39,008 nt of DNA from positions 1-39,008 of the forward strand of contig JADLBJ010000177.1 in the NCBI GenBank assembly GCA_020847765.1. Direction: 5' to 3'. Below are positions 6,078 to 37,695 of the stretch, in pieces. How positions within the stretch are numbered: position 1 is the first letter of the stretch; every line of letters starts with the position of its first letter. The stretch is from Dehalococcoidia bacterium (GTDB lineage: Bacteria > Chloroflexota > Dehalococcoidia > Tepidiformales > Tepidiformaceae). Below the pieces are notes generated by a model. It was not told the DNA's origin and made no database searches. It saw nothing but the letters and a program-made list of their open reading frames with translations. Made by a program: the position numbers and the translations under genes.

Positions 6078-6092
6078 CAGGCGGGGGGCGGA

Positions 6093-8231: not shown

Positions 8232-8238
8232 AGCGGCG

Positions 8239-8244
8239 CCTCCT
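8239..8244 (-). promoter_or_regulatory. Consensus ribosome binding site of glgX
   Basis: Minus-strand AGGAGG ends 7 nt before the in-frame ATC at 8231-8229. No ATG, GTG or TTG lies at that distance in any frame, so the site appears to drive initiation at ATC or to be what is left after an ATG-to-ATC change. Confidence 0.6.
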
Positions 8245-8260
8245 CGACGGAGTTGTTTCC

Positions 8261-8266
8261 ACTGTA
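8261..8266 (-). promoter_or_regulatory. Possible -10 element of glgX
   Basis: Minus-strand TACAGT (four of six to TATAAT, fits TANNNT). Transcription from here would begin downstream of the GTG at 8279, leaving a leader of about 25 nt with the AGGAGG. No good -35 at standard spacing. Confidence 0.35.
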
Positions 8267-8420
8267 GCGGATGAGGCACGCCGGAGTGGGCAACGGCCGA
8301 GCGGGGCGTGCTGGGGCGGCCGCTTCATCAGGTGCACGCCGACGGCCGGGGCCTTGATGCCGGCGCGATGAGGCGGGCGGTACAACGGGGGCGGAAGGCA
8401 TGGCGAGAGGAGGCAGGGAA

Positions 8421-10463: not shown

Positions 10464-11669
10464 ATGCAGGCGCTCGACGATCTTGTCGTCCTCGACCTGA
10501 CGCACCATATCGTGGGGCCGTATGCGACGAAGCTGATGGCAGACCTTGGGGCCGACGTGATCCAGGTCGAAAGGCCTGGTGGCGACGTCGCGCGGCGCCT
10601 GGGACCGTTCCAGGGTGACGACCCGCACATCGAGAAGAGCGGCCTCTTCTTCTTCCTGAACACGAACAAGCGCTCCGTCGTCCTCGACCTTAGGCGGGAG
10701 AGCGGGCGGGACGCGCTCGCGCTGCTAGCGCGGCGGGCGGATCTGGTGGTGGAGAACTTCGCACCGGGGACCCTTGACCGGCTCGGCCTGGGTTGGAAAT
10801 TCTTTCAGGAGATCAAGCCCGAACTGCCGCTCGTCTCAATCTCGAACTTCGGCCAGGACGGGCCGTACCGCGACTACCGCCTCACGGAAGTGGTTCTCTA
10901 CGGGTTCGGCGGCGAGATGTATTCGATGGGTCTCACGGACCGGGAGCCGGTGAAGATGGCCGGGACGGCCGCCTGCTTCGAATCGGGCGCGGCGACGGCA
11001 CCGGCGCTGATGGCCGCGATCATGACGAGCCGGCAAAGCGGCCAGGGCCAGCATGTCGACGTCGCGCTGGCCGAGACGCAGGCGGGAGGGGTCGATCGGC
11101 GCCATGCCACCGCTATCGCCTATCAGTTCAGCGGGCGTAAGACGCTACGGACGGCGGGGGCGGGGACGGGGATGCCCCAGGGCATCTATCCCTGTGCCGA
11201 CGGTTACGTCGACTTCACCAACGCCGGCATCCGGCCAGACCGGGTGCTCGACATGCTGAGCTACCCCGACTGGGCGACGGACCCGCGTTACCAGGAGCCG
11301 ACGGCCCGCTTCAACGCGGCGCTGATAGAGGAGTGGAACGGCAACTTCCTCGTCTGGTGCCTGGAGCGCACGAAGCGGGAAGTTTGGGCGGAAGCGCGCC
11401 GGGCGAAGGTGATGTGCGGCCCGCTGTTTACGATGGAGGACCTGTTCGAAGACGAGCACTTCCGGGGGCGCGGATTCTGGACCAGGGCAAGCCACGCCGT
11501 GATGGGCGAGGTGGAGCTGCCCGGACGGCCGTTCCAGATGAGCGAGGGAGGCTGGCAGCTGCGTCGGCCGGCACCGCTTCTCGGCGAGCACACGGAGGAG
11601 GTTCTGCAGGAGGCGGGGGCCAGCGGTGCGCTGATCGCGGGAGTGCTCGAGGAGGGGGCGCAGAAGTGA
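10464..11669 (+). CDS. CaiB/BaiF (class III) CoA-transferase family protein, catalytic Asp apparently lost
   Basis: A 401-residue member of the family that moves CoA between carboxylic acids. Family landmarks are clear: LDLTHHIVGPYATKLMADLGADVIQVERP, NTNKRSVVLDLR, VVENFAPGTLDRLGL, and SGQGQHVDVALAETQ. Aligned by the constant distance to the R-x-T-G-x-G-Q motif, the nucleophilic Asp (Asp169 in formyl-CoA transferase) falls on Cys171 in GTAACFESG. The ATG at 10464 follows GGGGGAG; the longer track ORF from 9831 is antisense to the MFS gene. The stop overlaps the next ATG (TGATG). The pairing suggests a non-catalytic subunit of a heteromer with the next gene. The acid substrate is unknown. Confidence 0.85.
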   Translation: MQALDDLVVLDLTHHIVGPYATKLMADLGADVIQVERPGGDVARRLGPFQGDDPHIEKSGLFFFLNTNKRSVVLDLRRESGRDALALLARRADLVVENFAPGTLDRLGLGWKFFQEIKPELPLVSISNFGQDGPYRDYRLTEVVLYGFGGEMYSMGLTDREPVKMAGTAACFESGAATAPALMAAIMTSRQSGQGQHVDVALAETQAGGVDRRHATAIAYQFSGRKTLRTAGAGTGMPQGIYPCADGYVDFTNAGIRPDRVLDMLSYPDWATDPRYQEPTARFNAALIEEWNGNFLVWCLERTKREVWAEARRAKVMCGPLFTMEDLFEDEHFRGRGFWTRASHAVMGEVELPGRPFQMSEGGWQLRRPAPLLGEHTEEVLQEAGASGALIAGVLEEGAQK

Positions 11670-12991
11670 TGGACAAGCCACTGAAGGGCGTTCGGGTGAT
11701 AGACCTGTGCGTCGTCTGGGCCGGGCCGTTCGCCACCATGTTGCTGGCCGACCTCGGCGCGGAGGTCATCAAGCCGGAGAACCCGTTCGTCTTCCAGCCG
11801 ATGACACGGGGGGCGATGGCACGGCCGCCCGCGGCTTTCTTGCAGGCGGCGGTCGCATGGAACGGGGGGCTTCCCGGGAATGTGCCCGGTGAGCGCCCGT
11901 GGAACTACAACCCGACGTTCGTCAGCCTCTACCGGAACAAGAAGAGCTTCACTGTGGATCTGCGTCAGCCGGAGGGGATGGACATCTTGCGGCGGCTCGT
12001 CGCCGTGTCCGATGTCGTCTACGAGAACAATGCGACGGGGACGGTGGAGAAGCTCGGGATCACATACGAATGGCTGAGGTCGATTCGCGAGGACATCGTC
12101 TTCGTGCGCGTCCCGGCCTATGGCAGCACCGGCCCCTACCACGACGCGCGCGCGCTGGGCGTGCACCTGGAAGCGGTCATGGGCCACACCCTGCTACGCG
12201 GCTACGAGGACGCGGACGCCTCCACGACGACAGCCATCTACTCGGGCGACTACCTGGCGGGTGCCCAGGGCGCCTTTGCCGTGATGGCGGCCCTCAGGTA
12301 CCGGGAACGAACGGGCAAGGGCCAGTTGATCGAAGTCGCACAGGCCGAGAACGCGTCGCCGATGTTCACCCAGGCGATCATGGACTACAGCATGAACCGG
12401 CGCGTGCAGACGGCCCTCGGGAACCGGGACGTGCACGGCCGCTACCCGTGCGGCGTCTACCCCGCCAAATCGCCGGGCACGGCGCTGGCACAGGAGGACC
12501 ACTGGGTCGCCATCCACGTGGAAGACGACGCGGGCTGGGCACCGTTCGTCGAGGCTCTGGGGAGCCCCGCGTGGGGCGCCGACCCCCGCTTTGCGACCAA
12601 CGCCGGGCGGGAGGCGCAGTGCCGGGAGCTCGACGCGCTAATCGCGGCCGCGACCGCTGAGCACGAGGACTACGCCCTGATGACGAAGCTGCAGGCCGCC
12701 GGGATTGCGGCGGCGCCGGTGCTCGAGGCCTCGCGGCTGTTCGACGACCCGCACCTGCGCGCGCGCGACTTCTTCCGCATGCAGACGGTCGAGGGTGCGG
12801 GCACGAAAGAGTACGTCGGACCGCTGTGGAAGTTCCCGGAGTCGCCCGTGGAGTACTACCAGGGGCCCGCGACCTTCGGCGAGCACAACGAGTACGTATA
12901 CCGTGAGGTGCTCGACGTGGGCGACGAGGAGTATGCAGCCCTCGTTACCGCCGGCCACGTCGCGCGGGGGTACGACCCGAGCGTGCCGTAG
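11669..12991 (+). CDS. CaiB/BaiF (class III) CoA-transferase, catalytic Asp present
   Basis: A 440-residue paralogue directly coupled to the previous gene by a 1-nt overlap (TGATG). It begins LKGVRVIDLCVVWAGPFATMLLADLGAEVIKPE and carries NKKSFTVDLRQPEG, VRVPAYGSTGPYHDARALG and RTGKGQLIEVAQAEN. The expected nucleophile is present as Asp194 in YSGDYLAGA, spaced from the T-G-x-G-Q motif as in formyl-CoA transferase. An insertion after residue 35 (FVFQPMTRGAMARPPAAFLQ) makes it longer than the usual 400 residues. The track start at 11333 is an out-of-family extension into the upstream gene. Likely the active subunit of a heteromeric CoA-transferase; substrate unknown. Confidence 0.88.
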   Translation: MDKPLKGVRVIDLCVVWAGPFATMLLADLGAEVIKPENPFVFQPMTRGAMARPPAAFLQAAVAWNGGLPGNVPGERPWNYNPTFVSLYRNKKSFTVDLRQPEGMDILRRLVAVSDVVYENNATGTVEKLGITYEWLRSIREDIVFVRVPAYGSTGPYHDARALGVHLEAVMGHTLLRGYEDADASTTTAIYSGDYLAGAQGAFAVMAALRYRERTGKGQLIEVAQAENASPMFTQAIMDYSMNRRVQTALGNRDVHGRYPCGVYPAKSPGTALAQEDHWVAIHVEDDAGWAPFVEALGSPAWGADPRFATNAGREAQCRELDALIAAATAEHEDYALMTKLQAAGIAAAPVLEASRLFDDPHLRARDFFRMQTVEGAGTKEYVGPLWKFPESPVEYYQGPATFGEHNEYVYREVLDVGDEEYAALVTAGHVARGYDPSVP

Positions 12992-18848: not shown

Positions 18849-18909
18849 GCCAAGCTTATCTTTTGGGGCTGTGGATTGCCCGGCCACGTCTCGGCGAACG
18901 AAGCTTGGC
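18849..18909. repeat. Spaced 9-bp inverted repeat in divergent promoter region
   Basis: GCCAAGCTT at 18849-18857 is matched by AAGCTTGGC at 18901-18909, a perfect inverted repeat with 43 nt between the arms and 52 nt between centres, close to five helical turns. It lies between rpiB (minus) and the DUF35 gene (plus). It could hold a dimeric regulator on the same DNA face, but chance cannot be excluded. Confidence 0.4.
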
Positions 18910-18943
18910 GCATCATGACCGGCTCGACCTGGAGTGCGGGGAG

Positions 18944-19381
18944 ATGACGACCGGCCAGCCTGCCCCGGCTGGAAAGCCGGTGCCCCTGCCAGACGACCTC
19001 ACCGCCCCCTACTGGGAGGGCGCCGGGCGGCGCGAGCTGTGCATCCAGCGCTGTTGTCGCTGCCGGACGTTCGCCCACCCGCCAGAGTCGCTCTGCCCGG
19101 CGTGCAACAGTCCCGAGCTGAGATTCGAGGCGGTGAGCGGCCGCGGACGCGTCTATTCGTTCACCGTGGTCCGGGACAACGTGACGCGCGGCTTCGAAGC
19201 GGAGGTGCCGTACGTCGTCGCGCTTGTCGAGCTCGCCGAACAGAAGCGCCTGATCGTCGTCACCAATCTGCCGGAAGCAGATCCCGAGCGGGTGCGCGTG
19301 GGATCCCCGGTCGTCGTCGACTTCGAGGCACGGGACGGGATGACGGTCCCTCAATTCCGTCTGGCGAGTGACGACCGATGA
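18944..19381 (+). CDS. DUF35 zinc-ribbon/OB-fold protein (acyl-CoA binding partner)
   Basis: A 145-residue protein with an N-terminal zinc ribbon (CCRC then CPAC, two C-x2-C pairs about residues 33-51) and an OB-fold (GRGRVYSFTVVRDN, VPYVVALVELAE, VGSPVVVDFE). DUF35 proteins pair with thiolase-fold enzymes; in actinobacterial steroid degradation the DUF35 domain of ChsH2 binds Ltp2 aldolase. The ATGA overlap with the following Ltp2-like gene supports such a complex here. The ATG at 18944 lies next to GGGGAG; the track start at 18863 adds 27 residues outside the domain. Confidence 0.88.
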   Translation: MTTGQPAPAGKPVPLPDDLTAPYWEGAGRRELCIQRCCRCRTFAHPPESLCPACNSPELRFEAVSGRGRVYSFTVVRDNVTRGFEAEVPYVVALVELAEQKRLIVVTNLPEADPERVRVGSPVVVDFEARDGMTVPQFRLASDDR

Positions 19382-20559
19382 ACGCGAGCCTGCGGGACCG
19401 CGTCGCGATCGTGGGCGCCGGGTACTCGTCGCTCACGCGCCGTTCTCCGCGGTTGCTGGCCGAGCTCACGGTCGAGGCCTGCGACGCGGCGCTGAAGGAC
19501 GCGGGCGTCACGCGCGCGGACGTCGACGGTGTCGCCACGGTGCCGACGATGCCGGCTTACGGGAACGCGGGCAGCCTCGACGGTGCCGACGTCGTCTCGG
19601 TGGGGTACCTCATTCGGCTGCTGGGGATCGGCCACCAGGTGGACTGGTACACGCAGACGCCCGGGCTGATCACCTCCACTGTCATCGACGCGGTCAACGC
19701 GCTGGCGGCGGGTGCCTGCAACTTCGTTCTCGTCTGGCGGGCGGTGCATATGCCCAGGGGACGGTACAGCAACTTCTCCCGTCCTGGCGCCGGTGGCGAG
19801 GACCAGTTCCGCGCGCCCTATGGCTGGACGATGCCAGCAGCCTGGCAGGCGATGGCGTACCAGAAGTACTTCGCCGATCACGGCGCGGGCCGCGAGGAGA
19901 TGGGCCGGTTCGTGGTGGACAACCGGGCGAACGCGAACCTCAATCCGCGCTCCTATTTCCGGGATGTGCCCCTCACGCTCGAGGAGTACATGGCGTCGCG
20001 GATGGTGGCGGAGCCGGTCTGCCTCTACGACTGCGACTTACCCGTGGACGGATGCGCGGCGATCGTACTGACGACGGCCGAGCGGGCGTTGGCGATGGGC
20101 CGGCGAGGCGCTCTTATCACTGGCTACGCGCAGACGACCTACCCCTCGACGGGCGGGTTCACCGACCCCGAGAACATGTGGATCGGCGGCGGAGCGATGG
20201 GGCAGAAGCTCTGGGCGGCTGCTGGCGTGGGCCCGGAGGAGATGGACCTGGCCTTGCTGTACGACGGCTTCAGCGTCTTCGTCTGGATGTGGCTGGAGTC
20301 GCTCGGCTTCTGCAAGCGGGGCGAGGCCGCGGCGTTCTTTCGCGACGGTCACGGCCGGCTCACCGGCTCGCTGCCCGTCAACACGTCGGGCTGCAGCCTG
20401 GGCGAGGGCCGCCTTCACGGTATGGCGCACCTGACGGAGGCCTACCTGCAGCTCAGCGGGCAGGCGGGCGCGCGCCAGTTGCCCAACGCCCGGCGCGCCG
20501 TTGTGACGGTTGGTCCTGGAAGTTGGGTCAGCGGCGGCCTCGTGCTGCGCGCGCTCTGA
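19378..20559 (+). CDS. Ltp2-like thiolase-fold protein (retro-aldolase type)
   Basis: A 393-residue thiolase-superfamily protein of the SCPx/lipid-transfer branch. It begins VAIVGAGYSSLTRRS, has ALKDAGVTRADVDGVATV, LLYDGFSVFVWMWLESLGFCKRGEA and LPVNTSGCSLGEGRLHG. The region of the thiolase nucleophile has no Cys (YTQTPGLITST), so it is not a classical thiolase and fits better with Ltp2 retro-aldolases that cut beta-hydroxyacyl-CoA. By position, Tyr295 in LLYDGF matches the catalytic Tyr294 of Ltp2, while Arg345 in GEGRLHG stands where Tyr344 is expected (residue numbers recalled, not aligned). Coupled to the DUF35 gene by an ATGA overlap; the CaiB pair follows 40 nt later. Exact substrate unknown. 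Confidence 0.85.
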   Translation: MNASLRDRVAIVGAGYSSLTRRSPRLLAELTVEACDAALKDAGVTRADVDGVATVPTMPAYGNAGSLDGADVVSVGYLIRLLGIGHQVDWYTQTPGLITSTVIDAVNALAAGACNFVLVWRAVHMPRGRYSNFSRPGAGGEDQFRAPYGWTMPAAWQAMAYQKYFADHGAGREEMGRFVVDNRANANLNPRSYFRDVPLTLEEYMASRMVAEPVCLYDCDLPVDGCAAIVLTTAERALAMGRRGALITGYAQTTYPSTGGFTDPENMWIGGGAMGQKLWAAAGVGPEEMDLALLYDGFSVFVWMWLESLGFCKRGEAAAFFRDGHGRLTGSLPVNTSGCSLGEGRLHGMAHLTEAYLQLSGQAGARQLPNARRAVVTVGPGSWVSGGLVLRAL

Positions 20560-20599: not shown

Positions 20600-21883
20600 A
20601 TGGCATCTGACACATCGCAGAAACGTGGCCGGCCACTCGAGGGCGTGAGGATCCTGGACCTGACACGACATCTGGCAGGAGCCGGGTCAACCCGCATCCT
20701 GGGGATTCTCGGGGCGGAGGTCCTGCGCTTCGAATGGCCGCACCCCCCGGCCCTCGACTTTCTCCGGCTTTCGGGGCCCAACGCCGACGGTGTGCCGGGC
20801 ATGAACCGCAGCGGCTTCTTCGCGCAGACGAACGTCCACAAGAAGAGCGTCGCCCTCGACCTGTCCACGCCGCGCGGGCAGGAGATCCTGAGGAAGTTCG
20901 TACCGCTCTGCGACATCGTCGTCGAGAGCTTCACGCCCGGGGTGATGAAGAAGTGGGGCCTCGACTACGCCGGGCTGCGGGCGCTGCGCGAAGACGTGAT
21001 CTACGTGGCGGCCTCCGGATTCGGGCACACGGGGCCGTTGCGCGACTACCGGTCCGTCGGGCCGACGGCGCAGGCGTACTCGGGGTTGACCGCGATGGTG
21101 GGCCTCGAAGGCTGCGAGCCGGCCGGCTGGGGCTTTTCGTACATGGACCACATGGGCGCCACGATGAACGCCGCCGCCATGCTGATGGCGCTCGAGCGGC
21201 GACGGGTGACGGGGAAAGGGGAGTTCATCGACGGCGGGCAGTCGCAGCACGGGGCGGCACTCCTCGGGCCGATGCTGCTCGACGCGACGATCAACGGCGG
21301 GACTATCGCCCCGCGCGGCAACCGCGACCTCTATGGCGACTACGCGCCGGCGAACGCCTATCGCTGCGCGGGGACGGACCGCTGGGTGACGATCGCCGTG
21401 CGTAGCGAACGCGACTGGCTCGCCCTCTGCCGCGCGCTCGGGCTCGACGATCTGGCGGCGCGACCGGAGCTGCGCACGCTGGTCGGCCGGCGCGCGGCCG
21501 CCGACGAGATCGACGCGGCGATCGCGGGCTGGACGAGCGGACGGGACCGTTACCAGGTGATGGACGTGCTCCAGGCGGCGGGGGTGGCTGCCGGAGTGGT
21601 CCAGCATGTCGACGACAAGGCGGAGCGCGACCCCGCCCTGGCGGCGCGCCAGTTCTACACGGCGATCGACGACGACATCCTCGGGCGCAAACGGTATGAG
21701 GGCGTTCCCCTGACGAGCGAGGAGTTCGACAGCTCCATCACGACCCCTTCGCCATGGATGGGGGAGCATACCCGCGAGGTGCTGACGACGGTGCTGGGCT
21801 TCAGCGACGCCGAAGTCGACGAGCTGGCGGCGGCCGCGGTGATCTGGGAGGCAGACGTGAAGCGGGAGGGACGGACGTCATGA
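20600..21883 (+). CDS. CaiB/BaiF (class III) CoA-transferase, catalytic Asp present
   Basis: A 427-residue family member: LEGVRILDLTRHLAGAGSTRILGILGAEVLRFEWP, HKKSVALDLSTPRGQ, VVESFTPGVMKKWGLDY, AASGFGHTGPLRDY and RVTGKGEFIDGGQSQ. Asp183 in SYMDHMGA is at the nucleophile spacing from the T-G-x-G motif. The ATG at 20600 has GGAGG 9 nt upstream; the track start at 20510 lies inside the previous gene. It is coupled by an ATGA overlap to a second paralogue that lacks the Asp. Its place after the DUF35/Ltp2-like genes suggests it activates or recycles the acid handled there. Confidence 0.88.
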   Translation: MASDTSQKRGRPLEGVRILDLTRHLAGAGSTRILGILGAEVLRFEWPHPPALDFLRLSGPNADGVPGMNRSGFFAQTNVHKKSVALDLSTPRGQEILRKFVPLCDIVVESFTPGVMKKWGLDYAGLRALREDVIYVAASGFGHTGPLRDYRSVGPTAQAYSGLTAMVGLEGCEPAGWGFSYMDHMGATMNAAAMLMALERRRVTGKGEFIDGGQSQHGAALLGPMLLDATINGGTIAPRGNRDLYGDYAPANAYRCAGTDRWVTIAVRSERDWLALCRALGLDDLAARPELRTLVGRRAAADEIDAAIAGWTSGRDRYQVMDVLQAAGVAAGVVQHVDDKAERDPALAARQFYTAIDDDILGRKRYEGVPLTSEEFDSSITTPSPWMGEHTREVLTTVLGFSDAEVDELAAAAVIWEADVKREGRTS

Positions 21884-23046
21884 GCCGTTTGCTGGAGCAT
21901 CTGACCGTGGTCGAGCTGGCGAGTCCGCTGACCGAATGGTGCGGGCGGCTTTTCTCGCAGGCAGGGGCGCGCGTGATCCTCGTGGAGCCGACGGGCGGCG
22001 CCGAAACGCGCAGCCGCGGGCCGTACCTGAACGGCCACGACGGCGATCCCGAGGCGAGTTTGCACTTCTGGCACTACAACACGGACAAGGAGAGCGTCGT
22101 CCTCCGCCCGGACGCCGATTCGGGCGGGCGGGCCCTCGCGGTCCTCCTCGCCAGGGCGGACGTACTGGTCGACGCCGGAACGTCGCCGGCAGTAGACGCG
22201 GCCGCAGCGGCGAATCCCTGTCTCGTCCGGGTGACCGTCACGCCCTTCGGGGAAGGGGGACCGTGGGCGGGATATGCGGCGACCGACCTCACCCACCTGG
22301 CGCTCGGCGGGCAGATGATGGTCTGCGGCTATGACGACCTGGAGCACACGCCGCCACTCGCACCGACCGGCAACCAGGCCTACCACATGGCGGGAACCTG
22401 GGCGTTCATCGCGGCGCTCGCCCGACTCCAGGCGTTGCCGTCCCGCGGCGGCGGGAAGGTGGGCGTCTCCGTGCACGAGGCGTGCGCCGGGATGACGGAG
22501 AACGCCTTCCCGAACTACGACTACACGGGCCAGGTGGTGACGCGACGGACGGGTCGCCACGCGAGCCTGGGACCGACGCCACCCTGGCAGCACCGTGCGG
22601 CCGACGGGCGGTACGTCAACGCACAGCTGGTCAACGTGCCGCCGCCGGCCTGGATGGCGCTGGTGGAGTGGATGGAGTCGGACGGAATGGCGGAAGACCT
22701 GGTCGACCCCAAGTACTTCATCCCGGAGCTGTTCCGCGAGCACTCATGGCGGATCTCCGAGGTGCTCGGCCGCTTCATCGCCACGAAGACTGCGGACGAA
22801 TTCTTCCACGGGGCGCAAGCTCGTGGGCTCATCGTCAGCGACGTCAACTACCCTCAAGACCTCGTCGACGACGAGCATCTGGCGGCGCGCAAGTTCTGGC
22901 GCGACGTGGACATGGGCGACGGCACGACACGCACGTTTTCGGCGTCGACCTTCCTGTGCGCCGAGTCGGAGACGGGCCCGTGGCGGCGCGCGCCCCGTCT
23001 GGACGAGCACGGGAACGCGCTGCGGCGAGAGTTCGGGATCGCCTGA
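21880..23046 (+). CDS. CaiB/BaiF family protein, catalytic Asp replaced by Asn
   Basis: A 388-residue divergent paralogue overlapping the previous gene by ATGA, with GGGAGGG 9 nt before its ATG. Family features are weaker but present: LTVVELASPLTEWCGRLFSQAGARVILVEPTGG, NTDKESVVLRPD, VRVTVTPFGEGGPWAGY and GLIVSDVNYPQDLVDDEHLAARKFW. The T-G-x-G-Q motif is eroded (SRGGGKVGVSVHEA), and the nucleophile position falls on Asn165 in TGNQAYHMAG. It is probably a structural or acceptor-binding subunit of a heteromeric CoA-transferase with the preceding gene. Confidence 0.83.
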   Translation: MSRLLEHLTVVELASPLTEWCGRLFSQAGARVILVEPTGGAETRSRGPYLNGHDGDPEASLHFWHYNTDKESVVLRPDADSGGRALAVLLARADVLVDAGTSPAVDAAAAANPCLVRVTVTPFGEGGPWAGYAATDLTHLALGGQMMVCGYDDLEHTPPLAPTGNQAYHMAGTWAFIAALARLQALPSRGGGKVGVSVHEACAGMTENAFPNYDYTGQVVTRRTGRHASLGPTPPWQHRAADGRYVNAQLVNVPPPAWMALVEWMESDGMAEDLVDPKYFIPELFREHSWRISEVLGRFIATKTADEFFHGAQARGLIVSDVNYPQDLVDDEHLAARKFWRDVDMGDGTTRTFSASTFLCAESETGPWRRAPRLDEHGNALRREFGIA

Positions 23047-23130: not shown

Positions 23131-24069
23131 ATGGACATCCTGCTGCCGCAACTGCGGGCATTCGTGGCCGTGTCGCGGCTGGGAAGCTACGCACGGGCTG
23201 CGGAGGAGCTTTCCTACAGTGAGCCAGCAGTCTACCTGCAGGTGAAAAGCCTGGAGAAGGGGCTCGGGCTCCGCCTGGTACGACGCCAGCGAAAGCAGGT
23301 GGTGCTGACATCGGAAGGGGAGGAGCTTCTGCCGCGCGTCGTCGAGATGCTCGACCGGGCAGACCTCGTGGCGCAGGCGGCGCGCGGGTTGCGCGGACGC
23401 ATCGTGGTCGCCTCGGGGCCGAACACGGCCGTCTCCTGGATCATGCCGATCATCGCGCGCTACCAGCGCCAATTCCCCCAGCACGAAGTCGAGCTCCACG
23501 CGGGCGACGCCCCGGGTCTGGTCCGGGACGTGATCCTGGGGAATGTGGACATCGCGATCGGCGGCATCCGGCGGGAGCAGATCCGCGACCAGAGCTTCAC
23601 CACGCACCGGCTGGTGCTCGTCCCCTGGGTGGAGGACGAATGGGCGGTATTCGGCTCACCGGGGCTCCTGGAACGACGGGCGAGTGGTCTCCCCGGCGAG
23701 CCGCTGCGCGTCTTCCATTACCCGCGCTTCACACGCCGGCCCCTGGAGGAGGCGGGCCGCTATGTCAAGGAGCGCCTCGGACGCCCGGTTACGCTGGTAG
23801 AGATGGGCAGCCTGGACCTGGTGCGCGGCGCGATCGTCAACGAGCTCGGGCTGGGAATCATCCCGATCAGCGCGGCGCCCTTCCTCGACACAACGCGGAT
23901 AGCACCGGTCTGCGACCTTGGCGGGTATGCTGGCCTGACGCTCCGGCTGCTGCACCGGCGGCCACGGCTGCTTACGCCGCCGGTACGATGCTTTCTCTCC
24001 TACCTGATCCAGGGCCGCGGGAGGGTACGCGCCGAAGCCGGGGGGCAACCCGCCCGCGCGCTGCGCTGA
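23131..24069 (+). CDS. LysR-family transcriptional regulator
   Basis: A 312-residue DNA-binding regulator. The N-terminal winged helix-turn-helix is clear (LRAFVAVSRLGSYARAAEELSYSEPAVYLQVKSLEKGLGLRLVRR, residues about 8-53), followed by the periplasmic-binding-like effector domain (GRIVVASGPNTAVSWIMP, VDIAIGGIRREQI, LGIIPISAAPFLD). It has its own probable promoter and lies directly after the DUF35/Ltp2-like/CaiB operon, in the same direction, convergent with the LLM operon. It is the likely local regulator of one or both operons, with an aromatic or organic acid or its CoA ester as ligand; that is inference from position. Confidence 0.93.
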   Translation: MDILLPQLRAFVAVSRLGSYARAAEELSYSEPAVYLQVKSLEKGLGLRLVRRQRKQVVLTSEGEELLPRVVEMLDRADLVAQAARGLRGRIVVASGPNTAVSWIMPIIARYQRQFPQHEVELHAGDAPGLVRDVILGNVDIAIGGIRREQIRDQSFTTHRLVLVPWVEDEWAVFGSPGLLERRASGLPGEPLRVFHYPRFTRRPLEEAGRYVKERLGRPVTLVEMGSLDLVRGAIVNELGLGIIPISAAPFLDTTRIAPVCDLGGYAGLTLRLLHRRPRLLTPPVRCFLSYLIQGRGRVRAEAGGQPARALR

Positions 24070-24939: not shown

Positions 24940-27213
24940 TCAGTCCCAGCCGGGCTCGCCGGCGTGCAACGTCTCCAGCACTCGGCGAGGCGAGAGCGGC
25001 AGCTCGGTGAAGCGCACGCCGATGGCGTCGTAGACCGCGTTGGCGACGGCCGCCAGCGGGGGGACGAGCGGCACTTCGCCGACGCCGCGCACGCCGTAGG
25101 GGTGGCCCGGGTTCGGCACTTCGACGAGGATGGTGTCGATCATCGGCAGGTCGGGGGCCGTGGGCATGCGGTAGTCGAGGAAGCTGGCGTTGAGCTGGCG
25201 ACCCTGGTCGTCGTAGCAGTACTCCTCGTTCAACGCCCAGCCGAGGCCTTGGCCAACCGCACCCTGGATCTGCCCTTCGACGTAGGATGGGTGCACCGCC
25301 CTCCCGACGTCCTGGACGGCGGTGTAGCGCAGAATCGCGATCTTGCCTGTTTCTTCGTCGACCTCGACGTCGACGATGTGGGTGGCGAAGGCGCCGCCGA
25401 CGCCGGTGGCGGTCACGCTGGCGGTGGCAGTGATCGGCCCGCCCGTTCGCGCGGCGCCGGCCCCGAGGTCCTTGAGGGTGAGCTGCTTTTCCGGAGCCTC
25501 GCGCGACCAGAGGCGGCCTTCCCCGTATTCGATCGTATCCACAGGAACGCTGAGCGCCTTCGCGGCACGCACGGCGAGTTGGCTGCGAAGCTCCATTCCG
25601 GCCTTGTGGACGGCCAACCCGGTGGCGAAAGTGGTGCGGCTGCCGCCGGTGAGGTCGTTGTGGCCAATGGAGTCCGTGTCCACGACGGCGGGCCGGATGT
25701 CGGCGTAAGGGACTTCGAGCACTTCCGCGAGCTGCATGGCGAGGGAGGCGCGCGTGCCGCCGATGTCGACGGAGCCCTCGATCAGGGTGAGGGTGCCGTC
25801 CGGATGCAGGGCGACCGAGACGGTGGATTGGAAGCCGCCGTTGAACCAGAAACCGGAGGCGACGCCACGGCCGCGGTTTGGCCCCTCGATCGGCGTGTGG
25901 TAGTGGGGGGTGGTGGCGGCCGCGCGGACACACTCCTCGTTGCCGATGACGCCGAAGGGGGCGCCCGTCACCTGGAGGGTCCCCTGGCGGGAGGCGTTGC
26001 GCAGGCGGAACTCGAGTGGATCGACGCCGAGACCGCGGGCGAACTCGTCGATAACGGTCTCGACCGCGAACGCGCCGGTGGGGGCCCCCGGGGCGCGATA
26101 GGGCGCGACTTTGGGCTTGTTGACGCAGACGTCGTAGGCGTCGACGACGAAGTTCTCGATCGCGTAGGGGGCGAGCATGCACATGGCGGCCGGGCCGACG
26201 GGTGAACCCGGGTAGGCACCCGCCTCGTAGGCGAGCGTCGCCTCGCAGGCAGTCAGGCGGTCGCCCTGGCGGGCGAGCTTGATGCGGGTGAAAGTAGCGC
26301 TCGTCGGCCCGGAGGCCTGGAACTCCTCGGCGCGGTTCATGGTGATCTTGACGGGACGGCCGCTCTTCTTGGAGAGCATGACGGCGAGCGGCTCGAGATA
26401 AACGGGGATCTTGCCGCCGAAGCCGCCGCCGATCTCCATCGGCACGACGCGGACGCGGTTGGCGGGCAGGCGGAGGAGCTCGCAGACCTGCCCGCGGATG
26501 CCAAAGGCACCCTGGGTGCTCGTCCAAACCGTGACGGTGCCGTCGGGGTTCCAGCTGGCGGTGGCGTTGTGCGGCTCGATGTAGCCCTGGTGGACCGTCT
26601 TCGTGACGAACTCGCGCTCGAGGACCTCGTCTGCTTCGGCGAACGCGGCGACGACGTCGCCTCCCTGGAAGCGGGTGTGGCTGGCGACATTGCTCGGGCG
26701 GTCGCCCTTGCCCGCCATCGACTTCGTGCGGCGGAGGTCGTCGAGCAGGGGGGCGTCCTCGCGCATTGCGTCGCGCGCGTCCATGACGGGAGTGAGCGGT
26801 TCGTATTCGACGCGGATGAGGTCGAGCGCCTGCTCGGCGACGTGCGGCGAGAGAGCGGCGACGGCGGCGACGGCGTGGCCCTTGTAGAGGACCTTGCGCG
26901 AGGCGAGGACGTTGTCGCTCAGCTCACGCAGGTTGACGGCGCCCTCACCGAGCTGGGCGATGGCGTCGGCGGCGAGGGGAAAGTCGGCGGCGGTGACGAC
27001 GGCGACGACGCCGGGAAGCGCCGCGGCGGCGCTGGTGTCTATCGAGACGATGCGGGCGTGCGCGTGCGGGCTGCGGAGGACGCGGCCATGGACAAGACCC
27101 GGCAGACGGACGTCAGCGCCGTACTGGGCCTTGCCAGTCACTTTTTCCACGCCGTCAGGGCGGATGGGGCGGGTGCCAATGACGCGGAAGGGGGGCTGGT
27201 CGACTGTGGTCAT
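24940..27213 (-). CDS. Xanthine dehydrogenase-family molybdenum-binding (large) subunit
   Basis: The 757-residue large subunit of a molybdenum hydroxylase, which hydroxylates a carbon of an aromatic ring, aldehyde or CoA ester using water. The N-terminal a/b-hammerhead (RPDGVEKVTGKAQYGADVRLPG) is complete; molybdopterin motifs follow: STQGAFGIRGQVCELL, IGGGFGGK, YRAPGAPTGAFAVETVIDEFA, VDIGGTRASLAMQLAEVL, and the catalytic-Glu segment GVGEVPLVPPLAAVANAV. No 2Fe-2S (small) or FAD (medium) subunit gene lies near, although these are usually adjacent. The SDR is 24 nt upstream and the LLM gene 2 nt downstream. Confidence 0.92.
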   Translation of the reverse strand: MTTVDQPPFRVIGTRPIRPDGVEKVTGKAQYGADVRLPGLVHGRVLRSPHAHARIVSIDTSAAAALPGVVAVVTAADFPLAADAIAQLGEGAVNLRELSDNVLASRKVLYKGHAVAAVAALSPHVAEQALDLIRVEYEPLTPVMDARDAMREDAPLLDDLRRTKSMAGKGDRPSNVASHTRFQGGDVVAAFAEADEVLEREFVTKTVHQGYIEPHNATASWNPDGTVTVWTSTQGAFGIRGQVCELLRLPANRVRVVPMEIGGGFGGKIPVYLEPLAVMLSKKSGRPVKITMNRAEEFQASGPTSATFTRIKLARQGDRLTACEATLAYEAGAYPGSPVGPAAMCMLAPYAIENFVVDAYDVCVNKPKVAPYRAPGAPTGAFAVETVIDEFARGLGVDPLEFRLRNASRQGTLQVTGAPFGVIGNEECVRAAATTPHYHTPIEGPNRGRGVASGFWFNGGFQSTVSVALHPDGTLTLIEGSVDIGGTRASLAMQLAEVLEVPYADIRPAVVDTDSIGHNDLTGGSRTTFATGLAVHKAGMELRSQLAVRAAKALSVPVDTIEYGEGRLWSREAPEKQLTLKDLGAGAARTGGPITATASVTATGVGGAFATHIVDVEVDEETGKIAILRYTAVQDVGRAVHPSYVEGQIQGAVGQGLGWALNEEYCYDDQGRQLNASFLDYRMPTAPDLPMIDTILVEVPNPGHPYGVRGVGEVPLVPPLAAVANAVYDAIGVRFTELPLSPRRVLETLHAGEPGWD

Positions 27214-29968: not shown

Positions 29969-30708
29969 GGACAGGAAGACCGGAGCGCCGGCATGCTGAG
30001 CAGCTCGCTCAGCTCGTCGAAGGTGAATTCCGGGACGACGCCCTCGGCGTCCGGGGTGCAGCGGCGCCAGGCGGTGGCGATGCCCACGGCCTGAGCACCG
30101 GCCACGTCCTCGGCGAGCGAGTTGCCGACCATGAGGGCCCGCGCCGGTGCGACCTTGAGGCGCTCGAGCGCGTGCTGAAAGTTGGCGGGGTGGGGCTTGA
30201 GGTAGCCCACTTCGACGGACACGACCTCGGCGTCCCAGCCGACGTCGAGCCCGGCCTCGCGCAGGTCGGCGCGGAAGCGCTCGCCGCCGAAGGCGCGGTT
30301 GGTGACGGCGGCGAGGAGAAAGCCCCTGCGCCGAAGCTCGGAGAGGACGGCAGCCGCGTCGGGGAACGGGGACTTACCGCCTTCCATCCCGCTGATGTAG
30401 GTCGCTTCCAGGAGAGCGGCGGCCTCTGAGCGGCCAAGATTGACACCCAGGCTATGGAGCGCGGACATCGCGACGAGGCCGTAGTCGGGCTCGCGGAGGT
30501 CGGTGGCGCGGGCGCAGCGCATGGCGTCTTCGAGGGCGTCCCAGCAGGTGCGAGCGACGACGGCCGGGTCGGCGCCGGTGACACCGAGGAGGGCCAGGTG
30601 CTCGGCGGCCCGCTCGGCGGCGCGGCGGCGGAACTCGGCCGCCGGCGGCGCCGCACGAGAGTGCCAGAGCGTGTCACCGATGTCGAAGAGGAGTGCACGG
30701 AACGGCAT
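29965..30708 (-). CDS. HAD-superfamily hydrolase (subfamily IA)
   Basis: A 247-residue phosphatase-like protein. Motif I is FDIGDTLWHS with the nucleophile and general-acid Asp (DxGDT), motif II is AVTNRA, motif III the Lys in VGYLKPHPANF, and motif IV MVGNSLAEDVAGA. In motif IV the usual GDS is GNS, while the following Asp of AED is kept, so Mg binding may still work. An alpha-helical cap lies between motifs I and II. It is coupled to argH by a GTGA overlap; the physiological substrate is unknown (sugar phosphate, phosphoglycolate or nucleotide are all possible). Confidence 0.88.
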   Translation of the reverse strand: MPFRALLFDIGDTLWHSRAAPPAAEFRRRAAERAAEHLALLGVTGADPAVVARTCWDALEDAMRCARATDLREPDYGLVAMSALHSLGVNLGRSEAAALLEATYISGMEGGKSPFPDAAAVLSELRRRGFLLAAVTNRAFGGERFRADLREAGLDVGWDAEVVSVEVGYLKPHPANFQHALERLKVAPARALMVGNSLAEDVAGAQAVGIATAWRRCTPDAEGVVPEFTFDELSELLSMPALRSSCP

Positions 30709-30750
30709 GGAAGGTCGCGAGGGCCCCGGAGGGGCGCGCTTCGGAGGGCC

Positions 30751-30779
30751 ATCATGTCACGGGGGTGTTATGCGGACAA
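30751..30779 (-). promoter_or_regulatory. Likely sigma70-type promoter of HAD-argH
   Basis: Minus-strand TTGTCC (30779-30774) and CATGAT (30756-30751) are separated by exactly 17 nt, each with four matches to consensus. The -10 box ends 42 nt before the ATG. This is one of the few places in the window with both boxes. Confidence 0.45.
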
Positions 30780-30832
30780 CCGCGCGGGGCCGTAGGGGAA
30801 GCGCCTGACCGGGGCCAAAAGGACGCGGGCGC

Positions 30833-30838
30833 TACAAT
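30833..30838 (+). promoter_or_regulatory. -10 element for a leaderless glgP mRNA
   Basis: TACAAT (five of six to TATAAT) ends 7 nt before the ATG at 30846 and overlaps the earlier ATG at 30837. No Shine-Dalgarno lies before either ATG. The geometry places the RNA start on the second ATG. Confidence 0.5.
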
Positions 30839-30845
30839 GGTGCAG

Positions 30846-33401
30846 ATGCGATTGCGCGCCACCCGCACCCTGCTGGTCGAGCCGGACCTGCCGGCGCCTC
30901 TCGCGTCGCTTCGGCGCCTTTCCTGGAACCTGTACTGGACGTGGAACACGGACGCGGCGGCGCTATTCGAGCGGCTCGGTCGGCAGCGGTGGACGGAGTC
31001 CGGTCACAACCCGGTGCGCGTGCTGCAGGCGGTGTCGCCGGCCGAGCTGGAGGCGTTTGCGGGCGACACCGGCTTCGTGGCACACCTCGACCGGGTGACG
31101 GCAGCGTTCGACGCGTACCTGGCGCGCCCGCCGCAGGTGCGGGTGGCCGGGACCTCGGCGCGGAGTGTGATCGCCTACTTCTCACTGGAGTTCGCACTCA
31201 CGGAAAGCCTCCCCGACTACTCCGGCGGGCTCGGTGTGCTGGCCGGCGACCATCTGAAGTCCGCAAGCGATCTGGGGTTGCCACTGGTCGGCGTCGGGCT
31301 GCTGTACAAGCAGGGATATTTCCACCAGGTGCTGGGGCCGGACGGCTGGCAGACGGAGGAGTACCAGGAGATCGACCTGGCGTCCCAGCCCATCAGCCGC
31401 GTGACGAACCGGGAGGGCGAACCGCTGCACGTGCCTGTGCCGATGGACGGGCGCGAGGTGCGGCTGGCGGTCTGGCGGCTGGACGTCGGGCTGACGCCCC
31501 TTTACCTGCTGGACGCCGACGTCGACGGGAACTCGCCGGAGGACCGTGCGACCTCAGCCCGGCTCTACGGGGGAGACATCGAAACGCGCATCCAACAGGA
31601 GATGCTGCTGGGCATCGGCGGGGTGCGCGCGCTCCATGCTCTCGACATTCATCCAGCCGTCTGCCATATGAACGAGGGGCATTCGGCCCTCCTCGGCCCG
31701 GATCGTATCCGTATGCTGATGGAAGAAACGGGGGCGACCTTCGACGAGGCACGCCTGCCCGTGGCGGCTGCGACAGTGTTCACCACGCACACGGCGGTGG
31801 CAGCGGGGATCGACCTCTTCCCGCCCGACCTCGTGCGGAAATACCTGGGTCCCTACTACCAGGCGATGGGGCTGGATGACCGCGCCTTCCTGGGCCTCGG
31901 TCGGATCAACCCGGACGACAGCCAGGAGCCGTTTTCCATGGCCCTGCTGGGGCTGCGGCTCAGCGGCTACCGGAACGGCGTCTCGCAGCTGCACGGCGGC
32001 GTCTCGCGCCAGCTGTGGGGAGACGCGTGGCGGAACCTGCCCGCGGCCGAGGTGCCGATCGACGCGATCACCAACGGCGTTCACCTGCCCACCTGGGTGG
32101 CGCACGACGTGGGCGAGCTCTACGACCAGTACGTGGGGCCGGAATGGCGAGACAACCCTTCGCAGGGTGGCGTCTGGGCCGGGATCCAGAACATGCCGGA
32201 CGACGCCCTCTGGCGCGCCCACGAACGGCAGCGCGAGCGGCTCGTCTTGCGGGCGCGGGAACAGCACCGGGCGAGCGCGGAGCACCAGGGCCTGGCGGTG
32301 CTGGACCTTTCTGGCGGCGAGGTGCTGGACCCGCGGACGCTGACGATCGGGTTCGCGCGGCGCTTTGCCGGGTACAAGCGCGCGACGCTCTTGTTTCGCG
32401 ACCCCGAGCGATTGGCGCGGATCCTCAACAACCCGGCGCGGCCCCTGCAGATCGTCTTTGCCGGGAAGGCGCACCCGCGCGACGAGCCGGGGAAGCAGCT
32501 CATCCGCGAGGTGGTGGCACACAGCCGGCGCCCGGAGTTCCGCGACAGGCTGGTGGTGCTGGAGGGCTACGACGTGGAGCTGGCACGCGTCCTCGTACAG
32601 GGGTGCGACGTCTGGCTGAACACACCCCTGCGGCCGCTCGAAGCGAGTGGGACGAGCGGCATGAAGGCGGTGGCGAACGGGGCGCTGCACATGAGCGTCC
32701 TCGACGGCTGGTGGCGCGAAGCCTACCGTCCTGGTCTCGGCTGGGCCGTGGGACGGGATCGGATCGAAGACGATCCGGAGGTCCAGGACCTGTTCGACGC
32801 GGCGTCGCTCTACGACCTGCTGGAGCAGGAGGTGGCACCGCTCTTTTATGAGCGCAACGTGGACGGCGTGCCGGCTCGCTGGGTGGAGCGGATGAAGGAC
32901 TCGGTTGCCGCGTTCGCACCGTACTTCAGCACGCACCGCATGGTCGAAGAGTACACGCGGCGCGCCTATGGACCGGCCGCCCGCACCTGGGTGCAGCTCC
33001 GCAGCAACAACATGAAGCCGGCGCGCGACCTCGCGGGCTGGCTCGCCAGACTGCGCTCCGCATGGGATACCATCAGGATCGTGGCAGTTGCCGACGACGC
33101 GCGGGGGACGACCATCGTGCGGAAGCCGATCTCGGTCACCGCGCAGGTTCATCTGGGGCCGCTGAGCCCCGAGGACGTGCGCGTCGACGTGGTCTCCGGC
33201 GGAGCGGGCCCGGAGGGGGAGCTGCAGGCGGCGGGGACGACGGTGATGGCCTACCAGGGTATGGACGAGACGGGGATATGCCGCTATCTGGGCTCGTTCG
33301 AGCCCGATCGGGGCGGGAGGGTCGGGTACACGGTGCGCATCCTGCCGGCGCACCCGGACCTGCACAACCCGCTTGACACCGGCCTGGTGCGCTGGGCCTG
33401 A
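30846..33401 (+). CDS. glgP: Alpha-glucan (glycogen) phosphorylase, GT35, DUF3417 type
   Basis: Removes terminal glucose from glycogen as glucose 1-phosphate with pyridoxal phosphate. The 851-residue protein has an N-terminal DUF3417 segment (LRRLSWNLYWTWNTDAAALFERL), SLEFALTESLPDYSGGLGVLAGDHLKSASDLG, GHSALLGPDRIR, TIGFARRFAGYKRATLLF and the PLP-lysine motif EASGTSGMKAVANGAL (Lys about 607). The C-terminal 120 residues form a beta domain seen in this subgroup. The track ORF starts at 30693; I choose ATG 30846 (MRLRATRT) over 30837 because the TACAAT box covers the latter. It heads a run with the GH57 enzymes and glgA. Confidence 0.95.
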   Translation: MRLRATRTLLVEPDLPAPLASLRRLSWNLYWTWNTDAAALFERLGRQRWTESGHNPVRVLQAVSPAELEAFAGDTGFVAHLDRVTAAFDAYLARPPQVRVAGTSARSVIAYFSLEFALTESLPDYSGGLGVLAGDHLKSASDLGLPLVGVGLLYKQGYFHQVLGPDGWQTEEYQEIDLASQPISRVTNREGEPLHVPVPMDGREVRLAVWRLDVGLTPLYLLDADVDGNSPEDRATSARLYGGDIETRIQQEMLLGIGGVRALHALDIHPAVCHMNEGHSALLGPDRIRMLMEETGATFDEARLPVAAATVFTTHTAVAAGIDLFPPDLVRKYLGPYYQAMGLDDRAFLGLGRINPDDSQEPFSMALLGLRLSGYRNGVSQLHGGVSRQLWGDAWRNLPAAEVPIDAITNGVHLPTWVAHDVGELYDQYVGPEWRDNPSQGGVWAGIQNMPDDALWRAHERQRERLVLRAREQHRASAEHQGLAVLDLSGGEVLDPRTLTIGFARRFAGYKRATLLFRDPERLARILNNPARPLQIVFAGKAHPRDEPGKQLIREVVAHSRRPEFRDRLVVLEGYDVELARVLVQGCDVWLNTPLRPLEASGTSGMKAVANGALHMSVLDGWWREAYRPGLGWAVGRDRIEDDPEVQDLFDAASLYDLLEQEVAPLFYERNVDGVPARWVERMKDSVAAFAPYFSTHRMVEEYTRRAYGPAARTWVQLRSNNMKPARDLAGWLARLRSAWDTIRIVAVADDARGTTIVRKPISVTAQVHLGPLSPEDVRVDVVSGGAGPEGELQAAGTTVMAYQGMDETGICRYLGSFEPDRGGRVGYTVRILPAHPDLHNPLDTGLVRWA

Positions 33402-35071: not shown

Positions 35072-36319
35072 GTGACAGCCTGGGCGCAGCTGCTCCATTT
35101 CTATCAGCCGCCCACGCAGACCCACGACGTCCTGACCCGCGTGGCCAACGAGTCGTACCGCCCGCTGCTCCAGGTCCTGCGCGAGCACCCGGGGGCGCGA
35201 CTGGCGATCAACGTCAACGCGGTGCTGACAGAGATGCTGGCAGACCACGGCCTCGGCGACGTCGTTGACGGCCTGCGCGAGCTCGGGGAGCGCGGGCAGG
35301 CGGAGTACGTGGGGAGCGGTCGCTACCACCCTATCCTGCCTCTCATCCCGGCAGCCGAACGCGCACGATCGCTGGCGGAGAACGGGCGGGTCAACCGCAG
35401 ACTGCTGGGGGAGAGCTACTCGCCGGCGGGGTTCTTCCCGCCCGAGATGTGCTGGAGCGGCGCGATCGCGGCGGAGATTGCGGCGGCGGGGCATGAGTGG
35501 GTGGTGCTCAGCGGCGTCGCCTGTCCGACCGAATGGCCAACCGACCTCGTCTACCGGACCCCGGCGAACGGCCGTAGCCTGCGCGTTCTCTTTCGCGACG
35601 ACGTGCGCAGCAACCGCATCTCCTTTCGTGAGACGAGCCCCGAGCAGTTCCTGGCCGACCTGGCCCGCGTCGGCGGGGGACGGCGGGCCTATGTCGTGAC
35701 GGCGATGGACGCCGAGACGTATGGCCACCATATTCGTGGCTGGGAACGGGAATTTCTCGCCGCCACCTACGCCGCCGTGGAGGCGCAGGCTGGAGGACGG
35801 GTCGAGCGGGGCACGAGTCGTGTGCGCATGGTCACGCCGAGCGAGGTGGTTCAGGATTTCCCCGCGGGGCCATTGGTGGAACCGTTTCCTTCGTCCTGGA
35901 GCACGAGCCGCGACGACATCGCGGCGCTGAACCCCTATCCGCTCTGGCAGGCGCCGGGGAACCGCGTGCACGCCCTGCAATGGGAATACGTGCACCATTG
36001 TCTGGATCTGCTGACGGCCGGCCAGCGCTACGCGGAGAGCGACGAAGCGCGAAAGCACGCCGCGATGGCGGGCGACTTACTCCAGCCGGCGCTTCACAGC
36101 TGCCAGTTCTGGTGGGCGAGCCGTCGGCCGATGTGGGACGCGACGATGGTTCACCGCGGCTTTCAGCTCCTCAACGGCGTGCTGCTGAACGCCATGCGCG
36201 CGGTACACCTGGGAACGGCCTCGGCGCGGATGAAACAGGAGCTCAGCTGGCGCTTCGCGGCAGCGAACGAGCTGCGCACCCAGCTCGAACGCCACCTTTT
36301 CCTGGACGTACCTCTGTGA
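35072..36319 (+). CDS. GH57 family glycoside hydrolase (alpha-amylase-like)
   Basis: A 415-residue GH57 protein, distinct from its neighbour. It opens WAQLLHFYQPPTQTHDVL, the GH57 N-terminal strand, and shows the catalytic pair as Glu in FFPPEMCWSG (about 124) and Asp in VTAMDAETYGHHIRGWERE (about 212). A helical region (CQFWWASRRPMWDATMVHRG) follows. It may act as an alpha-amylase, 4-alpha-glucanotransferase or amylopullulanase; short size and context favour trimming or rearranging maltodextrin. The GTG start lies 31 nt after the branching-enzyme stop, with a purine-rich GGGGAAGGGGG upstream. The stop overlaps glgA (GTGA). Confidence 0.85.
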   Translation: MTAWAQLLHFYQPPTQTHDVLTRVANESYRPLLQVLREHPGARLAINVNAVLTEMLADHGLGDVVDGLRELGERGQAEYVGSGRYHPILPLIPAAERARSLAENGRVNRRLLGESYSPAGFFPPEMCWSGAIAAEIAAAGHEWVVLSGVACPTEWPTDLVYRTPANGRSLRVLFRDDVRSNRISFRETSPEQFLADLARVGGGRRAYVVTAMDAETYGHHIRGWEREFLAATYAAVEAQAGGRVERGTSRVRMVTPSEVVQDFPAGPLVEPFPSSWSTSRDDIAALNPYPLWQAPGNRVHALQWEYVHHCLDLLTAGQRYAESDEARKHAAMAGDLLQPALHSCQFWWASRRPMWDATMVHRGFQLLNGVLLNAMRAVHLGTASARMKQELSWRFAAANELRTQLERHLFLDVPL

Positions 36320-37695
36320 AGGTCCTGTTCGCGGCTGCCGAGGTGGACCCGTTCGCCAAAGTGGGGGGACTGGCCGACGTGGCCCGCTCGCTGCCCGCAC
36401 GGCTGAAAGAGATTGGGCAGGACGTGCGTGTCGTCACCCCCTGCCATGGGAGCTCGCTCGCCGCCTTCCGTGAGGCGAAGGCGCACCGCGAGTACGCCGT
36501 GCCGCTACCCGGGGGAGACCGTCGAGCGGAGGTTGCGACCGTCGAAGGCGAGGGCGGCGTACCCGTCGATCTCGTCCTGGACGAGCGCTATTTCGGGCGG
36601 GAGCGCGTGTACGGAGAGGCCGACGACCTGCTGCGCTACCAGTTCTTCTGCCGCGTCGTCATCCAGATGCTGACGCGCGACGCATGGATCCCGGATGTGG
36701 TGCACCTGAACGACTGGCACACGGCGCCGCTGGCGTTCGCCCTCCGCAACCTCGCCTGGGGCCACCCGGTGCTGCGGGGCGTCGCCTCGATCTTCACGAT
36801 CCACAACCTGCGCTACCGCGGCCCCGACGAGTTGAACGATTACCTCTCGCAGGCGATCTACTACAGCGACCGGATTACAACGGTCAGCCCGAGCTATGCG
36901 CGCGAGATCCTGACGAAGGAGTTCGGCGAAGGGCTCGACCCGCTCCTCCGCCTGCGTGAAGACAGCCTTAGCGGGATCTTGAACGGGCTGAACTACGACG
37001 TCTACAACCCACGTACCGATCCGAGCGTGGCCCATCAGTACGACCTGAGCTGTCTGGAGGAGCGCACGGCCAACCGGGAGGCGTTGCGCCAGGAGCTCGG
37101 CCTGCCCGCCCGCCGGGGCCCCCTGGCGGCGATGGTGACGCGACTGACCGAGCAGAAGGGCGTCGACATCGCCCTGCAGGCGGTACCCGAGCTACTGGCG
37201 GCCGACGCCCAGCTCGTCGTACTCGGTGACGGGGACGCCTGGCTGCAAGCAGAGCTGGGACGGCTGCAGGACGCCTTCCCGGACTCCGTGCGGCTGGCGG
37301 CGCGCTTTGACGAGCCCCTCGCCCGGCGCTTTTACGCGGGGGCCGACATCTTCCTGATGCCCTCCCGCTACGAGCCATGCGGCCTCGGACAGATCATCGC
37401 CATGCGCTACGGCAGCGTTCCAGTCGGGCGCCGCACGGGCGGGCTCGGCGACACCATCGTCGACGTCGACGAGCACCCGGAAGCAGCCACAGGGTTTCTG
37501 TTCGAGGAGTTCAGCAGCTTCGCCCTCGCCGGCACGTTCGACCGCGCGGTGCGCACGTTCCGCGACCAGAAGACGTGGACGCACCTGCAGGCGAACGGCA
37601 TGAGCCGGGACTACTCCTGGCGCGCGTCCGCCATTCGTTATGTCGAAACGTATGTCGAGGCCCTGCGCGCCCGCGGCATCGTTCCGCTCGAATGA
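36316..37695 (+). CDS. glgA: Glycogen synthase (GT5)
   Basis: Extends alpha-1,4-glucan using ADP-glucose. The 459-residue GT-B enzyme has KVLFAAAEVDPFAKVGGLADVARSLP with the donor-loop K-x-G-G-L (Lys15), VVHLNDWHTAPLAF, FTIHNLRYRG, TVSPSYAREI, GILNGLNYDVYNP and the C-terminal SRYEPCGLGQIIAMRYGSVPVGRRTGGLGDTI. The GTG at 36316 overlaps the GH57 stop (GTGA); the track start at 35980 lies within GH57. Synthesis and degradation enzymes thus share one operon, implying post-translational or substrate-level control. No glgC lies in the window, so the ADP-glucose source is elsewhere. Confidence 0.95.
   Translation: MKVLFAAAEVDPFAKVGGLADVARSLPARLKEIGQDVRVVTPCHGSSLAAFREAKAHREYAVPLPGGDRRAEVATVEGEGGVPVDLVLDERYFGRERVYGEADDLLRYQFFCRVVIQMLTRDAWIPDVVHLNDWHTAPLAFALRNLAWGHPVLRGVASIFTIHNLRYRGPDELNDYLSQAIYYSDRITTVSPSYAREILTKEFGEGLDPLLRLREDSLSGILNGLNYDVYNPRTDPSVAHQYDLSCLEERTANREALRQELGLPARRGPLAAMVTRLTEQKGVDIALQAVPELLAADAQLVVLGDGDAWLQAELGRLQDAFPDSVRLAARFDEPLARRFYAGADIFLMPSRYEPCGLGQIIAMRYGSVPVGRRTGGLGDTIVDVDEHPEAATGFLFEEFSSFALAGTFDRAVRTFRDQKTWTHLQANGMSRDYSWRASAIRYVETYVEALRARGIVPLE

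Follow-up and report, generated by a model that had tools for sequence, protein, structure and literature searches.

Background

The closest described system is BbsEF, the succinyl-CoA:benzylsuccinate CoA-transferase of toluene degradation, which has been solved as a heteromer; the comparison made here rests on PDB titles and sequences. In the column of the catalytic nucleophile, chain B carries Asp178 and chain A Tyr171; the former fits the title of PDB entry 9fol, 'D178-CoA adduct', the aligned Asp being residue 178 of that chain. Formyl-CoA transferase (FRC, or YfdW) and YfdE, each encoded by one gene, are homodimers with Asp169 as nucleophile. PtmU4 contains tandem CoA-transferase domains, with a conserved Asp430 in the C-terminal one (PMC6006322). 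In mesaconyl-CoA transferase, a related enzyme, two subunits together form the slit that takes up the acyl end, one contributing a loop and the other its beta7'-alpha9' loop (PMC9196870). For SAR202, passages of a published study describe an expansion of CaiB/BaiF proteins, with many paralogues in Chloroflexota genomes, as in the genome analyzed here; these passages treat the paralogues singly and do not describe the pairing reported below (PMC5395668).

Two pairs of CaiB/BaiF genes

The window, i.e. the whole analyzed stretch of 39,008 nucleotides, contains two pairs of adjacent CaiB/BaiF genes, whose products all match PF02515 over the full profile length. The features are listed below, where E and F denote the two clades described in the following sections.

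10464 to 11669, plus strand: CaiB1, E subunit of pair 1; nucleophile column occupied by Cys171 (codon 10974-10976)
11669 to 12991, plus strand: CaiB2, F subunit of pair 1; predicted nucleophile Asp194 (codon 12248-12250)
18863 to 19381, plus strand: OB-fold/zinc-ribbon protein (ChsH2 C-terminal / DUF35 type); the true start may be downstream
19378 to 20559, plus strand: thiolase-like / lipid-transfer protein, conserved neighbour of pair 2
20600 to 21883, plus strand: CaiB3, putative catalytic F subunit of pair 2, 427 aa; PF02515 304.7 bits; F clade
21146 to 21148, plus strand: Asp183 codon of CaiB3, assigned by alignment; equivalent to FRC Asp169 and BbsEF Asp178
21880 to 23046, plus strand: CaiB4, E subunit of pair 2, 388 aa, without the nucleophile; PF02515 160.9 bits; E clade
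22381 to 22383, plus strand: Tyr168 codon of CaiB4, nucleophile column, where 7 orthologs have Gly and 9fn0_A has Tyr171
23131 to 24069, plus strand: LysR-type regulator, directly 3' of CaiB4

The last base of the CaiB1 stop codon is also the first base of CaiB2, and in pair 2 the ATG of CaiB4 shares bases with the TGA of CaiB3 (ATGA). CaiB3 and CaiB4 are separate reading frames, and not one polypeptide as in PtmU4/DddD-like transferases.

The closest solved chain is 9fn0_B for CaiB3 (phmmer, 4.1e-57) and 9fn0_A for CaiB4 (3.7e-35). The single-chain model of CaiB4 (pLDDT 86) also finds 9fn0_A as its best Foldseek match. As in BbsEF, the window pairs consist of adjacent genes, one in the clade of 9fn0_A and the other in that of 9fn0_B, with Asp in the F member and none in the E member; unlike BbsEF, pair 2 is ordered F-E, and the proteins are distant, CaiB4 being 28% identical to 9fn0_A in the Foldseek alignment. 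FRC and YfdE share with CaiB3 both the fold and the nucleophile.

The nucleophile column

The column was fixed by the PDB sequences of FRC Asp169 mutants (1vgq and others). The Asp of an earlier G-P-Y-x(7)-D motif had also been considered, and was ruled out by the Asp169Ala sequence of 1vgq. The aligned residues are Cys171 in CaiB1, Asp194 in CaiB2, Asp183 in CaiB3 and Tyr168 in CaiB4, so that Asp is found in CaiB2 and CaiB3 and is missing from CaiB1 and CaiB4. Since both lack it, the latter two are classed as class III homologues that are not expected, from their sequences, to be enzymes on their own.

An earlier note, made from the letters of the window, had placed Asp183 of CaiB3 at the nucleophile site, which the alignment confirms. 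It had also read CaiB4 as lacking the Asp: this holds, while the residue named, Asn165, is not the aligned one, which lies three positions downstream (N165-Q166-A167-Y168). No Asp close to Tyr168 was found that might serve in its place. The erosion of the T-G-x-G-Q motif described for CaiB4 is real, the protein reading SRGGGKVG, and is shared only by the nearest ortholog; G-x-G-Q is retained in most other partner proteins. The two pairs do run in opposite orders, pair 1 (10464-12991) being non-Asp/Asp and pair 2 Asp/non-Asp.

Two clades in the genome and its relatives

A census tree was built from the 32 CaiB domains of the window genome (2.5 Mb, 79% complete) and E. coli FRC, YfdE and CaiB. 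It contains a ten-member clade F, in which every protein has Asp (support 98/91), and a ten-member clade E (98/98), in which the residues are Cys, Tyr, Leu, Ser, Phe, Phe and Glu, plus three Asp. CaiB2 and CaiB3 belong to F, CaiB1 and CaiB4 to E. Both clades reach 100/98 once the BbsEF chains are added, one chain falling in each (9fn0_A in E, 9fn0_B in F). FRC and YfdE are placed outside both clades or weakly next to F, which E. coli FRC joins weakly in the tree including BbsEF.

Every E gene of the window genome adjoins an F gene, for a total of ten pairs. Nine of them are ordered E-F, the only F-E pair being pair 2 of the window. Fused double-CaiB forms are present elsewhere in this genome, three of the ten pairs being a single reading frame; like PtmU4, the fused E-F proteins have Asp in the C-terminal domain, and unlike it, the window pairs are separate genes and pair 2 is ordered F-E. 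One F gene of the genome (L020:1476-2600, on G000:C259) is broken by an in-frame TAG, and is either a pseudogene or an assembly error.

Three nearly complete relatives (1-4 contigs) contain 31 pairs, in which F always has Asp and E has it in 5. Against these stands one lone F gene (L111, G011:C1:2136103-2137314), and none is found in the window's genome. L111 carries Asp, is close to the F of pair L075, and has no E neighbour among the PF02515 hits.

Breadth and co-inheritance

A scan of named genomes, with an E alignment as query, gave 80 loci in Chloroflexota, Actinomycetota, Bacillota, Pseudomonadota, Binatota, Myxococcota, Planctomycetota and others; being found through E, these loci do not measure the frequency of lone F genes, which is given by the census genomes. 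One of the contigs, titled 'MAG: Bifidobacterium breve' (L163), has a fused E-F pair, and its metagenome bin label looks doubtful.

The joint tree (310 rows) contains 131 E and 126 F domains. The nucleophile column is Asp in all 126 F domains and in only 18 of the 131 E domains, the others showing 18 kinds of residue, among which Tyr is the commonest replacement (31/131). CaiB domains outside E and F have Asp in 48 of 53 cases. The association of an active with an inactive-looking protein, proposed from two pairs, is hence beyond chance and conserved in neighbouring genes across phyla.

A same-strand F neighbour was found for 123 of the 131 E domains. The remaining eight include five at contig ends, the others having an F gene 2-3.5 kb away. 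Taken with the 31 pairs of the three relatives, this bears out the expectation that the pairs are conserved neighbours. Fusion in one frame was seen in 46 of the 123 pairs in E-F order, and in 1 in F-E order. The distances within E and within F agree (Mantel r 0.78, against a maximum of 0.088 in 2000 permutations), and therefore pairs move and duplicate as units.

One split, repeated losses

The earlier note had supposed two duplications, each followed by its own loss, as a sign of selection for asymmetric heteromers. The trees do not bear this out: because the non-Asp proteins of both pairs share one clade and the Asp proteins another, the asymmetry was not established independently in each pair. 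The E/F split is, as the trees read, single and older than the many pairs of the family, which were later copied as units; the support for E and F as sisters is moderate (SH-aLRT 92, 74 and 92/84 in separate trees). What remains of the proposal is the asymmetric heteromer itself as the likely unit, given a pairing kept in many phyla and the co-evolution of the two clades; the route through two duplications is not supported.

The tree that the note had called for, in order to tell a single ancient split from convergent loss, finds both: a single split separates E from F, and within E the Asp is, on the aligned residues, repeatedly lost. A single clade of the non-Asp E proteins of the window genome is mildly rejected (p-AU 0.03). 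On the big tree, a loss-only count gives 24 losses of Asp, with pairs 1 and 2 of the window in different loss groups; in these two pairs the residue was probably lost separately. Orthologs of CaiB4 have Tyr in the window genome and in one other (G009), and Gly in seven genomes of another genus, at 61-65% identity for the close ones, whereas the CaiB3 partners seen alongside all retain Y-M-D-H.

The F-E order is common to all seven orthologous loci seen whole and to three sister pairs (L076, L085 and L091). Over the whole set, the gene order switched about five or six times. The reversed order of pair 2 is inherited and gives no evidence of an independent origin.

Relaxation in E

The nucleophile column ranks 1st of 364 comparable columns in the excess variability of E over F (3.52 bits), and 63 residue changes are inferred at this site within E. 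Overall conservation is nearly equal in the two clades (mean column entropy 2.36 bits in E and 2.18 in F), and E is thus not a decaying pseudogene. Other FRC columns, which we take to be contacts of CoA or substrate, were compared as well. The positions of FRC Asn96 and Arg104 are looser in E too, even in Asp-keeping E proteins, and columns 263-264 are Asp-Gly in 99-100% of non-Asp E and mostly Asp-Arg in F. Column 140 is Asp/Glu in 92% of non-Asp E, and in nearly all CaiB proteins outside the two clades, whereas 93% of F have Gly there. The Gly of the F clade, CaiB2 and CaiB3 included, is a possible signature, at the sequence level, of the catalytic subunit of heteromers.

Proposed mechanism and alternatives

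The preferred reading, to which we assign a probability of roughly 0.9, is that CaiB3+CaiB4 and CaiB2+CaiB1 would be two BbsEF-type heteromeric class III CoA-transferases, each with a catalytic F and a non-catalytic E subunit. It draws on the observed fold, family, residues and clades, on the conserved pairing and co-inheritance, and on a nucleophile column that is relaxed in E but not in F; from these we infer a physical heteromer with a single working site in each E-F unit. Asp183 of CaiB3 would attack the donor acyl-CoA, passing through an acyl-anhydride to an enzyme-CoA thioester, from which the CoA would then be handed to the acid acceptor. CaiB4, with a similar fold, would form no covalent intermediate; most likely it is interlocked with CaiB3, to whose active site its small domain contributes, its own site having degenerated. 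That E may serve the site of F with its small domain is suggested by analogy, because the acyl slit of mesaconyl-CoA transferase is built from two subunits. The 18 Asp-keeping E proteins could, from their residue, be active. The arrangement of one catalytic and one nucleophile-less subunit is old, widely conserved, already known from BbsEF and no fresh invention of this genome; the window adds two new members.

A separate duplication of each pair, followed by loss in one copy, would agree with the opposite gene orders and with the replacement of Asp by different residues (Cys and Tyr), but CaiB1 groups with the clade of CaiB4 and CaiB2 with that of CaiB3. Trees joining CaiB1 with CaiB2 (p-AU 2e-50) or CaiB3 with CaiB4 (p-AU 4e-5) are rejected, and identity within pairs is 23-27%, against 33% between CaiB2 and CaiB3; we regard this history as extremely improbable. 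Little more can be said for the view that the two proteins of pair 2 act apart from each other, with CaiB3 forming a homodimeric enzyme and CaiB4 being a moonlighting or unrelated paralogue. Homodimers are the usual form of class III CoA-transferases and lone F copies exist (L111), yet the adjacency kept in many phyla, the fusions, the co-phylogeny and the solved structure of BbsEF as a heteromer make it very unlikely.

A rather better case, still an unlikely one, can be made for E not being inert: its pocket could have been repurposed, for example to bind the acid acceptor or, allosterically, an acyl-CoA, with Tyr marking a functional class. The overall conservation of E, almost that of F, would fit, as would the frequency of Tyr, which is also found in chain A of BbsEF. 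However, Gly replaces Tyr in close orthologs of CaiB4, the residue at the site is inferred to have changed 63 times in E, and the CoA-contact columns are relaxed.

With these counts, a two-gene curiosity becomes a rule for paired class III CoA-transferases: the subunits of one clade are no longer held to the catalytic residue, while those of the partner clade always keep it. Pipelines that annotate every CaiB/BaiF gene as an active CoA-transferase would miscount activities, above all in a genome like the present one with its 32 copies. Together, the E proteins that keep Asp and the Tyr and Gly orthologs offer a natural series in which to ask why an enzyme retains a dead partner.

A second fused family

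One more family of fused double-CaiB proteins (L021:4015-6189, L077:335-2650, L088:320-2527 and L104:233-2452) falls in neither E nor F, and has Ser, Thr, Gln or Ala in the N-domain and Asp in the C-domain. A tree uniting its C-domain with F is rejected (p 0.003), while one uniting the N-domain with E is not (p 0.115). The family is possibly a convergent asymmetric dimer. We tentatively suggest, at somewhat less than even odds, that E is a broad cross-phylum pseudoenzyme lineage whose site drifts almost freely, as that of F never does, and that, with this family, asymmetric dimers evolved at least two times in this fold, the second time from another stock.

Genomic context of the pairs

None of the NCBIfam CoA-transferase models reaches its cut-off for any of the four proteins, and no substrate-level name is given. 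No bss/bbs gene set, as would accompany a benzylsuccinate CoA-transferase proper, was recognised among the window reading frames scanned, and the BbsA/BbsB NCBIfam models score far below cut-off for the window neighbours. Because that gene set was not recognised, the substrate of CaiB3/CaiB4 is probably an acid other than benzylsuccinate.

Pair 2 lies in a same-strand series composed of the OB-fold/ChsH2-type gene, the thiolase-like gene, CaiB3, CaiB4 and the LysR gene. The pair is read as sharing an operon with the first two. Relatives keep these two genes next to the pair as well, although on its downstream side, and pairs of Blastococcus (L134) and Paenibacillus (L135) are also adjoined by homologues; the LysR gene was not found adjoining the pair in the orthologous loci searched. 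The best solved matches of the two neighbours are the lipid-transfer protein and ChsH2(DUF35) of 6ok1, the benzoylsuccinyl-CoA thiolase BbsAB (7pxp) being a weaker match for both. It is plausible that the transferase would load CoA on an acid, to be cleaved later by the thiolase-like/OB-fold pair.

Glycogen/starch genes flank the CaiB region on both sides (window 3930-8279, 30693-33401 and 35980-37695); they are of the types GH13 with CBM48, phosphorylase with DUF3417, and glycogen/starch synthase. Downstream of the LysR gene, a xanthine dehydrogenase-type molybdopterin-binding subunit is encoded on the minus strand (window 24940-27213).
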